Of a stretch of DNA of 64,000 nt, positions 13,208-46,565 are shown piece by piece. This stretch comes from Arthrobacter echini. GTDB lineage: Bacteria > Actinomycetota > Actinomycetes > Actinomycetales > Micrococcaceae. The stretch's first letter is position 1. Each line of letters starts with the position of its first letter. Where the stretch lies: contig NZ_SSWH01000011.1 of NCBI RefSeq assembly GCF_004803505.1, positions 1 through 64,000 of the forward strand. The letters run 5' to 3'. A program made the position numbers and the translations under genes. The notes below the pieces were generated by a model. It did no database searches. It saw only the letters and a list, made by a program, of their open reading frames with translations, and was not told where the DNA came from.

Positions 13208-14916
13208 CAGAACAGGAAGTACCGCTGTGTCATGGGCAGCTTCTCCGCAGGCTCGTGCTCGATGAGCTCGCCGTCGACTTTCACACCGTACGTGTCGGGG
13301 TTCACCTCGATATGTGGCATCGCCGTGTTCTCCGGCAGATCCTCCTTGGTGCGCCCCCGGGTGTTCTGTATGGCCACGAGCTGCCGCTGGATGTTCAGTC
13401 TGTCCGCCAGCTTGTCCTCGATGGCGATGTCCGACACGAAGGCGACACTTGTTGCCGCTGCAGCCGGGCTGTGCGAGTTGAAACCCAGGCGCTCCAGTAC
13501 TGGTTGCGGGGTCGGAATGGAAGCGTTCGGATCTCCCAGCGCCGCAACAGCTGCTACGCCGCCCTTGAAGACAGCTGTCGGCCTCACCCCGAAGAGGGCC
13601 GGCTGCCAGAGTACGAAGTCTGCCATCTTACCCGCCTCGATGGATCCGATCTCATGGTCCAGACCATGCGCCACAGCCGGGCAGATCGTGTATTTGGCGA
13701 CGTAACGCCTGGCCCGATGATTGTCGGCCTTGCCGTCTCCGGGGAGTGAACCGCGGAGCTTCTTCATCTGGTGAGCGGTCTGCCAGGTCCGGATGACCAC
13801 TTCCCCGATGCGACCCATGGCCTGGGCATCGGAGGACATGATGGACAGCGCCCCCAGATCCTGGAGGACATCCTCCGCCGCGATCGTTCCGGCGCGCACC
13901 CTGCTCTCGGCGAAGGCGAGGTCGTTGGGAACCTGGGGGTTGAGATGGTGGGCCACCATCACCATGTCCAGGTGCTCGTCGACAGTGTTGACAGTGAACG
14001 GCCTGGTCGGATTCGTGGACGCCGGCAGGACGTTGCGCTCACCGGCAATGCGGATGATGTCGGGGGCGTGGCCGCCACCGGCTCCCTCCGTGTGGTACGA
14101 GTGGAAGGTCCGTCCGTTCACAGCCCGGAGCATGTCCTCGACGAAACCCGCCTCGTTGAGGGTGTCGGAGTGGATGGCCACCTGGACGCCGCTCTCATCG
14201 GCCACCTTCAGGGCCGCATCGATCACGGATGGCGTTGCGCCCCAGTCCTCGTGGATCTTGAACCCGCCGACGCCGCCGCGCAACTGCTCCCACATCGCTT
14301 CCCTGGACACGGTGTTGCCGCGTCCGAGGAACAGGACGTTGACCGGCCACGGATCGAAGCCCTCGAGCATGCGTTCCATCCACCAGGAGCCAGGAGTGGC
14401 CAGCGTTGCTTTCGATCCCTCGGTGGGTCCGGTTCCACCGCCGACGACGGTCGTGGTGCCGGCTGCCAGTCCCACTTCCAGCATGTCGGGCCCGACGAAG
14501 TGCACATGCGTGTCGATGGTGCCCGCTGTCATGATCAACCCGTTGCCCGACATGACCTCCGTCGAGGGGCCGATGACGAGATCCGGGTGGACACCATCCA
14601 TGGTCTCGGGGTTGCCGGCCTTTCCGAGGGCGACGAAGCGACCGTCCCGGATGCCGACATCGGCTTTGATGATGCCCCAGTGATCGAGGATCACGGCGCC
14701 CGTGATGATCAGGTCGGGTGTTCCCTCGGCGCGCGTGGCGCGGGACTGACCCATCGACTCGCGGATCGACTTGCCTCCACCGAAGACGACCTCGTCTCCG
14801 CCCGAGCAGCGGTCCTCCTCGACCTCGATCAGGAGATTCGTATCGGCGAGCCGGATGCAATCCCCGGTCGTGGGCCCGTAGGACGCCACATACTCGGCTC
14901 TATCGATCCTGGTCAT
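13207..14916 (-). CDS. ureC: Urease alpha subunit UreC
   Basis: This is the catalytic subunit, which hydrolyses urea to ammonia and carbamate at a dinickel centre. It has 569 residues, the normal length. All ligands are present with a constant +3 offset from Klebsiella numbering: His137 and His139 (DTHVHF), carbamylated Lys220 ([10 protein letters not shown]), His249, His275 and Asp363 ([10 protein letters not shown]). The flap reads VAHHLN, so His323 is kept while the usual flap cysteine is alanine. The ATG at 14916 has GGAGGG seven bases upstream, preferred to the GTG at 14931. It overlaps ureB by 17 bp. Confidence 0.98.
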
Positions 14917-42931: not shown

Positions 42932-44557
<1,626 letters not shown>

Positions 44558-44592: not shown

Positions 44593-44628
44593 CAGCACCC
44601 CGGTTCCTCGGAGCCGGGGTGCTGTTGT
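44593..44628 (+). terminator. Terminator of groEL
   Basis: CAGCACCCCGG (44593-44603) and CCGGGGTGCTG (44614-44624) form a perfect 11-bp stem with a 10-nt loop, followed by TTGT. It ends the groES-groEL transcript 36 bp after the groEL stop. Confidence 0.8.
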
Positions 44629-44661: not shown

Positions 44662-45668
44662 TCCCACTGGTAGCGGCCGAGTCGTGGGAGCGGAGGGGAT
44701 CTGCTGGCCGGCGTCGTCGTCGATCCCAATGACGCTGTCCGAATAGTGGGAGCGGGGCGGATCAGCGGGTCCGCGTCGTCGCCGATCCCAGTGGTGGTGC
44801 TCGAGTCGTGGGAGGGGGGCGGTCCTGCCCACTGTTGGGGCCCGAGTAGTGGGAGCGGGGCGGATCAGCGGGTCGGTGTCGTCGTCGATCCCACTGGTGG
44901 TGCTCGAGTAGTGGGAGCGGAGGGGATCTGCTGGCCGGCGGCGTCGTCGATCCCAATGGGTGGTCCTCGAGTAGTGGGAGGGGCCGGTCCTGCCCACTCC
45001 TGGTATTTAGGTAGTGGGATTGTCGGGACCGGTTCCCTTGCGTGAATGCCGAGCTGCGGGCGTCGAGGCAGGACGTTCAGGACGAGTGGTGCAGCACCGT
45101 GCCCGTCGTCGTCGGAGCTGCGCTTGATCCCCGTGGTGATGCCGACCGGTGGGAAGGGGCCGCGTACTGGTGACTTCCAGGCTTCATCGACGCCTGGTTG
45201 AGGGGTCGGTCGTGGGATGACGCATAGTGGTGGCGTTGTGCTCGCGCCGATCCCACTGGTGGTGCTCGAGTCGTGGGAGCGGGGCAAATCAGCGCGTCCG
45301 CGTTGTCGTCGATCCCACTGGTGGTGCTCGAGTCGTGGGAGCGGAGGGGATCTGCGTGCCGATGTCGTCGTCGATCCCAATGACGCTGTCCGAATAGTGG
45401 GAGGGGCCGGTCCTGCCCACTGTTGGGGCTTGAGTAGTGGGATCGCAGGGACGGGTGCCACGGTGTGGACGCTGGGCTTGGGCGTCGAAGCACGATGTCG
45501 AGGGTGAGGGATGTCTGGACCACGTCCGTCGGCGCCGATCCCACTGGTGGTGCTCGAGTCGTGGGAGCGGAGGGGATCTGCGTGCCGGTGTCGTCGTCGA
45601 TCCCAATGACGCTGTCCGAATAGTGGGAGGGGCCGGTCCTGCCCACTGTTGGGGCCCGAGGTGTGGGA
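44662..45668. repeat. Mosaic array of 15 palindromic hairpin units (BIME-like)
   Basis: This 1-kb non-coding interval lies between the convergent genes groEL and vanW. It holds 15 units of about 28 bp, each TCCCAC (or GCCCAC, or TCCCAA/TCCCAG), about 16 bp, then GTGGGA. Starts: 44662, 44724, 44786, 44827, 44889, 44951, 44992, 45128 (degenerate), 45251, 45313, 45375, 45415, 45539, 45601, 45641. Successive phases are 62, 62, 41, 62, 62, 41, then after a gap 62, 62, 40, and after another gap 62, 40. Units beginning GCCCAC always follow the short phase. Loop sequences fall into a few types (TGGTGGTGCTCGAGTC, TGACGCTGTCCGAATA, TGTTGGGGCCCGAGTA). Frames on both strands are low-complexity artefacts. 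The nearest analogue is a REP/BIME element. Its function is unknown. Confidence 0.9.
45312..45443. repeat. Large direct repeat, copy 1 (three hairpins)
   Basis: This segment with hairpins starting at 45313, 45375 and 45415 is nearly identical to 45538-45669. It is followed by an inter-block spacer that also resembles the spacer after 45019 (45058-45112 versus 45479-45533, both beginning GGGCGTCGA). The array therefore grew by duplication of blocks, not of single units. Confidence 0.85.
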
Positions 45669-45707: not shown

Positions 45708-46565
45708 TCAGGAGACCGGCGTGCTCTCCGGCCTCGCGGGGAGGATCTCAGCACGGACCAGGGACCGGTCGTAGGCGATCCGCCCCTCGTTCTCCATGAT
45801 CATGGTCTCCGCAACCTCCTCGCCGGTCCGCTTGTCGCGCTCGATACGGTACACACGATTGTGGCGGAACACCTCGCCGTCCTTCTCGTAGAAGTAGGCG
45901 TCACGCTCCCGGATGTGGAACTTCATGGGTAACTCGGCGTCGGCCCGCAGCTCCCCGCGGAGATGCTCGTCCGTGGTCCAGGTCCGGAACTGGAAGGTGT
46001 ACGGCGTTCGATTCTCCACCTGGTAGTCGAGGTAGTTGAAGGCGATCGAGGTGCCGGTTCCCCAGGGAATCTGACGATTGAAGTCCGGGAACAGATCGAG
46101 ACCGTTGTGGTGGTGATGCTCCACCACGGTGAGCGGACTGTGCAGCACCATCCAGTGCAGCAGGTTGGTGAACTGACACATCCCTCCGCCCACTCCGCGC
46201 GCCGGCTTACCGTTGCTGATCGTCATACCCTCCCGGTACCCCTCCCTGACGGAGCACCGGCCGGCCAGGTGCCAGAAGGAGAAGCGTTCTCCGGGAGCGA
46301 TGACGATCCCGTCGATCTTCGGTGCCGTCAGCCCCAGACTGACGGCTTTGTTGTCCTGCAGCTCCGTGTCCACGTTGCCGAGCTTGCGCCGGATCAGCGA
46401 CGTGTGCCGATACACCGTGACAGGCAGTGGCTCGGGCAAGCGGCGGCTGGAGAGCTGCTTCCCGCGCCGGAGGTTCCTCAGATGCCGCAGCAGGATCATC
46501 CGTTCCATGGCGATCCGATAGGTCAGCGGCGAGATCTCACCGAAGAGCCGTCGAGCCATTGACAT
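45708..46565 (-). CDS. VanW family protein
   Basis: This 285-residue protein has the VanW domain: LQDNKAVSLGLTAPKIDGIVIAPGERFSFWHL, the central GVGGGMCQFTNLLHWMVLHSPLTVVEHHHHN and the beta-rich end YFYEKDGEVFRHNRVYRIERD. It lacks a signal peptide, with only a short basic helical N-terminus. VanW domains occur outside resistance clusters, and no vanHAX genes are nearby, so vancomycin resistance should not be inferred. The conserved Cys and His cluster suggests a metal or catalytic site. It converges on the hairpin array. Confidence 0.9.
   Translation of the reverse strand: MSMARRLFGEISPLTYRIAMERMILLRHLRNLRRGKQLSSRRLPEPLPVTVYRHTSLIRRKLGNVDTELQDNKAVSLGLTAPKIDGIVIAPGERFSFWHLAGRCSVREGYREGMTISNGKPARGVGGGMCQFTNLLHWMVLHSPLTVVEHHHHNGLDLFPDFNRQIPWGTGTSIAFNYLDYQVENRTPYTFQFRTWTTDEHLRGELRADAELPMKFHIRERDAYFYEKDGEVFRHNRVYRIERDKRTGEEVAETMIMENEGRIAYDRSLVRAEILPARPESTPVS

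Follow-up and report, generated by a model that had tools for sequence, protein, structure and literature searches.

Palindrome array between groEL and a VanW-like gene

The window analyzed here is the whole 64,000-nucleotide stretch of Arthrobacter echini DNA. Between positions 44662 and 45668 it carries 15 dyad units of the form TCCCAC-N16-GTGGGA. The site is convergent, being flanked by the 3' ends of groEL (+) and of a VanW-like open reading frame (-). The features are as follows.

42944..44557, + strand: left neighbor, a 537-aa ORF of the ORF list that we take from its sequence to be groEL, 3' end facing the array
44593..44624, + strand: hairpin after groEL with 15-bp arms, outside the array (inverted-repeat search)
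44662..45668: whole array, about 15 dyad units TCCCAC-N16-GTGGGA
44662..44689: unit 1, exact arms
44724..44751: unit 2, TCCCAA arm
44786..44813: unit 3, first half of a doublet, step 41
44827..44854: unit 4, second half of the doublet, GCCCAC arm
44889..44916: unit 5, exact arms
44951..44979: unit 6, 29-mer (one inserted base), first half of a doublet
44992..45019: unit 7, second half of the doublet, GCCCAC arm
45128..45154: unit 8, decayed 27-mer
45251..45278: unit 9, exact arms
45313..45340: unit 10, exact arms
45375..45402: unit 11, first half of a doublet, step 40
45415..45442: unit 12, second half of the doublet, GCCCAC arm
45539..45566: unit 13, exact arms
45601..45628: unit 14, first half of a doublet, step 40
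45641..45668: unit 15, second half of the doublet, GCCCAC arm
45708..46565, - strand: right neighbor, a 285-aa ORF of the ORF list that we presume to be VanW-like, 3' end facing the array

The array of palindromes between convergent genes that an earlier note on this DNA had described was confirmed. With a tightened consensus, 13 matches were obtained in the window, compared to a mean of 0.04 and a maximum of 1 in shuffled sequences; allowing up to two mismatches gave 15 matches, 13 of them inside the array (shuffles: mean 4.8, maximum 13). Thirteen units are 28-mers with at most one arm mismatch, accompanied by a 29-mer and a decayed 27-mer. The common 28-bp TCCCAC/GTGGGA stem claimed for every unit thus holds for these 13, but not to the letter, since both arms are exact in five units (44662, 44889, 45251, 45313, and 45539), the remaining 28-mers differ in the first or sixth base of an arm (GCCCAC, TCCCAA, TCCCAG), and two units have other lengths. 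Similarly, the steps among the 13 units do measure 62 and 40 to 41 bp, but besides these two phases, said to be fixed, steps of 103, 124 (2 x 62), and 259 bp occur. In this array, all four short steps lead to a unit starting with GCCCAC (44827, 44992, 45415, and 45641); the "always" attached to this rule does not extend to the other arrays of the genome. Finally, the region was said to lack a reading frame. Mechanical ORFs of 105 to 225 aa (minimum, 100 aa) do cross it, but a filter on GC by codon position keeps none of them.

At gathering thresholds, no Rfam family matched the array, and a terminator/promoter scan of the region returned no consensus sites and nothing terminator-like. CGTC-rich stretches are visible upstream of many units. 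The hairpin at 44593 to 44624, which the scan did not return, is probably the groEL terminator. The last 150 aa of groEL gave 97 to 100% matches at four of seven related Arthrobacter loci, and the seven closest relatives of the VanW-like ORF all belong to Arthrobacter (83 to 94% identity). At one Arthrobacter ruber locus (L047), the groEL match lies on the opposite side of the VanW-like gene compared with the window. Elsewhere in the window, positions 14473 to 14763 (+) matched the Rfam family 5_ureB_sRNA at 51.3 bits (gathering score, 40); this family is unexpected in an actinobacterium, and the match possibly reflects urease-gene similarity alone.

Dispersal of the element in the genome, the genus, and the family

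The exact pattern TCCCAC-N16-GTGGGA occurs 49 times in the genome to which the window belongs (G000), compared to once for a reversed-pattern control. In the stretches examined, the copies fall into 17 clusters. Two of them, at G000:C5:1-624 (L028) and G000:C39:205281-205568 (L038), lie at contig ends and share identical array units; because they are probably a single array split by the assembly, we speak of 16 to 17 arrays rather than 17. Across the genus, 26 of 38 genomes, with G000 among them, carry the exact pattern 1 to 49 times (reversed-pattern controls, 0 to 3), and most congeners have 0 to 9 exact sites. In a 295-genome sample, the other genera of the family had 0 to 2 copies; one genus (g27) stood apart, with genomes that reach 10, 23, and 25 copies.

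Of 81 clusters, 6 overlap a predicted ORF. Once 10 clusters that reach a contig end or overlap a predicted ORF had been removed, 71 could be classified by orientation: 35 are convergent, 31 tandem, and 5 divergent. These data support a dispersed, intergenic, doublet-built family that is REP/BIME-like, and the likening to BIMEs in the earlier note was borne out in its dispersal, intergenic placement, doublets, and mostly convergent or tandem sites.

Doublet anatomy and helical phasing

The minimal element is a doublet of two 28-bp dyads; g27 and sister species have it by itself. It is 68 bp long, the dyads starting 40 bp apart with a 12-bp center between them. At the loci read in G147, 15 of 15 doublet steps measured 41 bp, whereas in other species 22 of 25 measured 40 bp. 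In sister species, the center is often TGTCTAGACA, itself palindromic. The corresponding pattern GGG-N2-TGTYYRRACA-N2-CCC was found in 14 of 38 genomes at 1 to 7 copies each (control, zero in all) and had no match in the array-rich genomes G000, G034, and G010. In these three, the outer 6-bp arms are best kept. Inner positions of their 40-bp doublets pair in 3 to 73% of copies depending on position and genome, and those of the 35 such doublets of G000 pair in 3 to 60% (raw percentages, with no chance test).

Spacings are quantized at 40, 49 to 52, 60 to 63, and 71 to 72 bp. Among 95 spacings of 36 to 46 bp in the three array-rich genomes, 93 were exactly 40 bp, one was 41 bp, and one was 44 bp. 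We set these 40-bp-class steps aside and counted each of the other spacings once per array. The 111 spacings below 200 bp then gave a best period of 10.35 bp with a mean resultant (R) of 0.776, the maximum in 500 random sets being 0.30, and 88 of the 95 spacings of 42 to 105 bp fell inside 4-bp bands spanning 37.5% of that range. At 10.5 bp, R was 0.87 in G000, 0.80 in G034, and 0.52 in G010; G010 alone was fitted better by 12.55 bp (R of 0.72), with 10.5 bp still significant. The three genomes have most array loci in common, and their spacings are therefore not independent. The phasing is established statistically, and with its period of about 10.4 bp it suggests that the units are phased sites on double-stranded DNA.

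Spacers of 22 to 34 bp were 0.29 to 0.46 identical between arrays (shuffled, 0.24 to 0.34), and 12-bp spacers were 0.48 to 0.56 identical (shuffled, 0.26 to 0.27). Inside one array, identity reached 0.52 to 0.94. Given the quantized steps and the modest identity between arrays, spacer length is kept more strictly than spacer sequence.

Arrays at matching loci in related species

For 15 of the 17 clusters of G000, the corresponding locus in G034 and/or G010 also carries an array; this count includes the cluster at a contig end (L028), matched by one flank only. The flanks of the matched loci are 75 to 94% identical, unit numbers differ, and the array alignments are partial. Over 12 aligned array pairs, identity amounted to 404/437 in the arms, 409/579 in the insides, and 522/698 in the spacers, a comparison that somewhat favors the arms, since the unit definitions come from G000 alone and the best local match was taken for every pair. 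We saw no sign of recent transposition between G000 and G034 or G010, where arrays occupy the same loci. The array positions are thus old and their content turns over in place, which fits maintained binding sites and argues against recent transposition.

A gene family bracketed by the element

In many genomes, the TCCCAC element brackets a gene of about 270 codons for a protein that combines an AbiEi_4 wHTH domain with a REase_MTES_1575 domain. The copy of the A. echini genome lies outside the window, on another contig, and has arrays on both sides.

G000:C11:26935-27744: AbiEi-REase gene

The C-terminal domain matches PF18741, and the N terminus matches the AbiEi models of PADLOC. Over 26 diverse members, Pfam returned the MTES_1575 domain in 25 and AbiEi_4 in 20, and the conserved residues include E210, H217, D226, and R229. 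Matches in the PDB were weak, namely, a mobile intron protein (3r3p, E = 0.032), which we take to be linked to EDxHD homing endonucleases, and an endonuclease-like protein (3hrl, E = 0.034). PMC3710099 describes the MTES_1575_REase domain as having a Vsr REase fold.

There are 21 loci of what we call the high clade of this family in the genus. Sixteen share one place, three (G028, G033, and G014) share a second place that is used in other genera too, and two are left over. We take the main place to be between TetR-like and PaaZ-like genes. The adjacent ORFs, which we presume to be TetR-, PaaZ-, ferredoxin/DapC-, and TypA-like, do not look like AbiEii. Split copies were found in G005, G008, G019, and G024, and one in G017. 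The gene is nearly absent from plasmids (two weak matches) and phages (one weak match), and viral contigs contained one distant partial relative.

We found no Y1_Tnp domain (PF01797) in G000 or in 21 of the 22 genomes searched. The sole genome with a match, in two adjoining pieces, is G175 (L181 and L182), which also has 10 TCCCAC sites and 6 AbiEi-REase profile matches.

Pairing of the gene family with the element

We looked up to 400 bp to either side of the gene for a TGTYYRRACA center or a unit with no more than one arm mismatch. Of 20 high-clade loci, 14 had one on both sides, 3 on a single side, and 3 on neither (L195, at a contig edge, was left out). For both sides, the same test gave 0 of 9 for paralog loci and 2 of 19 for other genera. 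With exact patterns only, 5 of the 20 high-clade loci were bracketed within 400 bp and 8 within 1,000 bp. Bracketed members of the AbiEi-REase family come from two genera and occupy different chromosomal loci. Other genes bracketed by arrays are an epimerase gene (L123) and a formate-dehydrogenase-like ORF (L126). An oxidoreductase gene has arrays on both sides in G000 (G000:C39:53044-54060; L037:2545-3561) and G034 (L124:2658-3755).

A comparison of left and right flanks that is independent of any motif gave scores above 14.3 for 39 of 47 family loci and 2 of 76 control genes (Mann-Whitney P = 1.2e-15), the cutoff, just above all but two controls, having been chosen after looking at the data. 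By group, 15 of 20 high-clade loci, 8 of 8 low-clade loci, and 16 of 19 loci of other genera exceeded it; L195 (contig edge) and L206 (run of N) were left out. The two control genes with matching flanks are both VanW-like (scores of 25.8 and 93.0), and no family locus exceeded the control maximum. The top outlier is the A. ruber VanW-like gene (L047:4001-4867; score of 93), which has long matching flank repeats.

We then scored dispersed elements as at least two TCCCAC units or one center outside the locus of the best gene copy, a rule set after looking. They were present in 18 of 21 genomes with the gene, whether whole or broken, and in 4 of 17 without it (Fisher P = 1.5e-4, an optimistic value since the species are related and the rule was set afterwards). 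The four genomes with elements and no high-clade gene are G021, G026, G037, and the 83%-complete G029. G005, G023, and G024 have the gene without dispersed elements; it is broken in G005 and G024, and no palindromes are recognizable at the G023 copy. The pairing is, like the phasing, shown on statistical grounds.

A paralogous clade with a palindrome of its own

Paralog loci had been meant as a negative control for flank matching, and as such they failed, since their flanks match too, by way of another palindrome. For the TCCCAC element, they are a clean control (see above). The failed control led to a second pairing test. The flanks of the paralogous clade, most members of which score about 170 to 216 bits, carry hairpins of the GTGTCG type. 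The pattern GCGTGTC-N7-GACACGC, derived from some of these flanks and then searched across the genus, was found in 28 of 38 genomes at 1 to 9 copies (control: 0 in 37 genomes, 1 in one). Among the seven copies of G000, two flank the paralog gene and five lie elsewhere; a third copy lies 1.8 kb downstream of the bracketed paralog locus (G000:C41:105369-108103; L232).

The palindrome was present on both sides of the paralog gene in 8 of 16 genomes, on one side in 3, and on neither side in 5. These 16 are the genomes with listed places and the gene; adding G008 and G010, which have a paralog match and no palindrome, gives 8 of 18 for both sides. The palindrome occurs in 26 of 30 genomes with the paralog (partial matches included) compared to 2 of 8 without it (P = 0.0017, flanking copies included). 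Across 51 loci scanned, neither exact TCCCAC units nor TGTYYRRACA centers ever occurred at the gene of the GCGTGTC type, nor did the reverse occur. In the tree, palindrome types follow protein clades, an agreement that outside the genus is confounded with genus. The proteins of G147 and G131 branch with those of their own genus, apart from the TCCCAC clade of the genus of the window.

AbiEi-REase genes of other Micrococcaceae genera (L231, L223, L228, L221, L217 to L220, L224, and L225) have further palindromes on one or both sides, of the types GTGCGCCAC, GTGGTGCA, TGTGCA, CCACCAGGTCCC, and GGACAT. Genome-wide counts were made for the TGCCRCC type. TGCCRCC-N11-GGYGGCA, guessed from g10 and g25 flanks, gave 0 to 5 copies per genome in 23 genomes (control, 0 to 8) and hence no dispersal above control.

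A nuclease-like partner as the candidate binder

The reading that we prefer, with a probability of roughly 0.6, is that the arrays belong to a REP/BIME-like dyad family recognized by an unrelated, nuclease-like partner encoded in the same genome. Helical phasing argues for side-by-side binding on double-stranded DNA, and the gene pairing makes the AbiEi-REase protein the first candidate binder. In such a mechanism, the wHTH domain would bind the TCCCAC/GTGGGA arms on double-stranded DNA, and protein units would line up next to each other along the array, all on the same face of the helix. The REase domain may act, or may once have acted, at the central palindrome of the doublet, and cutting or nicking there could lead to spread to new sites and to fast homogenization within arrays. 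The array-rich clade would have gained its extra dyads one helical turn at a time. Dispersal, phasing, arm constraint, bracketing, co-occurrence, and the second gene with its palindrome are shown by the data above, whereas binding by this protein, nuclease activity, and propagation are inferred. Going further, we suggest tentatively, as a possibility more doubtful than probable, that each AbiEi-wHTH/Vsr-REase lineage carries, recognizes, and spreads its own palindromic doublet, the nuclease cutting the center and the phased arrays serving as docking platforms. Such systems, selfish or domesticated, may form an undescribed actinobacterial class, a transposase-free counterpart of RAYT/REP.

Any protein that binds double-stranded DNA would suffice for the phasing, the arm constraint, and the stable loci. 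The arrays could thus be phased sites for another nucleoid or regulatory protein, with the AbiEi-REase gene as a mere frequent neighbor or one more target, in line with the few other bracketed genes and with the four genomes that have elements without the gene. We consider this unlikely, because a single gene family is bracketed in two genera at different chromosomal loci, the presence of the gene predicts dispersed elements, and the paralog has its own dispersed palindrome with zero cross-occurrence in 51 loci. An AbiEi-type N terminus next to a putative Vsr-fold REase domain, together with many sites per genome in array-rich species, would also suit a toxin/antidote-like arrangement in which arrays titrate a self-toxic or defense nuclease that is released upon damage or infection. 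Yet most congeners have just 0 to 9 exact sites, the gene occupies one locus in 16 of 21 cases and a second in 3, and its plasmid (two) and phage (one) matches are few and weak, all of which makes this arrangement improbable.

A role at the RNA level was among the options of the earlier note and is now disfavored; in it, 3'-end hairpins would stabilize, terminate, or titrate RNA. The mostly convergent or tandem sites are what it would predict, and folding gave z scores below -2 against shuffles for two of five window units and for two of four units of other genomes. The other window units folded, three of the five, reached -1.5 or weaker, the array region contains no terminator-like site, inner pairing in the 35 G000 doublets stays at the 3 to 60% given above (with no chance test), and a period of about 10.4 bp, with spacing that follows the helix, is a property of double-stranded DNA; we regard this role as quite improbable. 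Mobilization by a RAYT (Y1 tyrosine transposase), as for a classical REP/BIME, was likewise proposed before. The anatomy is the same, with palindrome doublets, intergenic dispersal, and one bracketed gene, but the absence of Y1_Tnp from this genome and from 21 of 22 genomes, motif-rich ones included, makes it very improbable, and it would remain only as action in trans from an extinct source. Finally, the array might be a functionless, decayed tandem duplication. Local duplication does occur, as the similar spacers within arrays tell (0.52 to 0.94), but the motif is neither local nor freely spaced: it is found genome-wide and in 26 of 38 genomes of the genus, with quantized spacing and conserved arms, which leaves this explanation a negligible probability. 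Among the options raised earlier, a putative protein-binding array is the best supported.

The REP-like family described here has a candidate partner other than a transposase, and the pairing was met twice in one genus, each time between a different gene and a different palindrome. Because they are phased, the arrays offer a direct test bed for repeats as double-stranded protein-binding platforms. If the reading is true, it would assign a role to a gene family of which nothing but the AbiEi-like and REase domains had been known.

Comparison with known systems

CRISPR was ruled out by the pattern, as repeat interiors vary, spacers within an array are alike, and there are several step lengths. 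Among the open-licence PMC papers listed by our searches (in several of them, the best 8 to 15), none mentioned palindromic repeats paired with the AbiEi-REase family in its title or at the start of its abstract. RepRanger (PMC12306157) tables one Arthrobacter genome and, in the excerpt seen, names no partner gene there.

With the AbiE type IV toxin-antitoxin systems, the protein shares the N-terminal AbiEi wHTH domain; unlike in these, its C terminus is a REase domain, and the neighboring ORFs, by the names that we assume for them, do not look like AbiEii. The C-terminal PF18741 match and the weak 3r3p and 3hrl matches suggest a likeness to REase_MTES_1575/Vsr-fold nucleases and EDxHD homing endonucleases, but here this domain is fused to an AbiEi wHTH domain, the gene is bracketed by palindromes, and no intron context was noticed.

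CGTC-tagged REPs, according to parts of Di Nocera et al. (PMC3733652), "apparently lack a dedicated transposase"; they come from other phyla and have 8- to 9-bp stems with 4- to 5-nt loops. The likeness lies in the lack of a RAYT and in the CGTC-rich stretches before many window units, which were seen in the sequence alone, whereas hairpin size differs, the units here being 28-bp dyads.

The closest parallel is the REP/BIME family with its RAYT, described in parts of the same paper (Di Nocera et al. 2013, PMC3733652) as palindromes in doublets or clusters, intergenic, at mostly convergent or tandem sites, with one bracketed gene. Dispersed intergenic doublets and clusters of short palindromes, their mostly convergent or tandem placement, and one bracketed gene are shared. 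In contrast, the candidate partner here combines an AbiEi wHTH and a putative Vsr-fold REase domain where theirs is a Y1 HUH transposase, the steps follow the helical repeat, and no GTAG tag was noticed by eye. Because the defining RAYT is absent, we do not file the array family as a member of the REP/BIME class, but it works like one.
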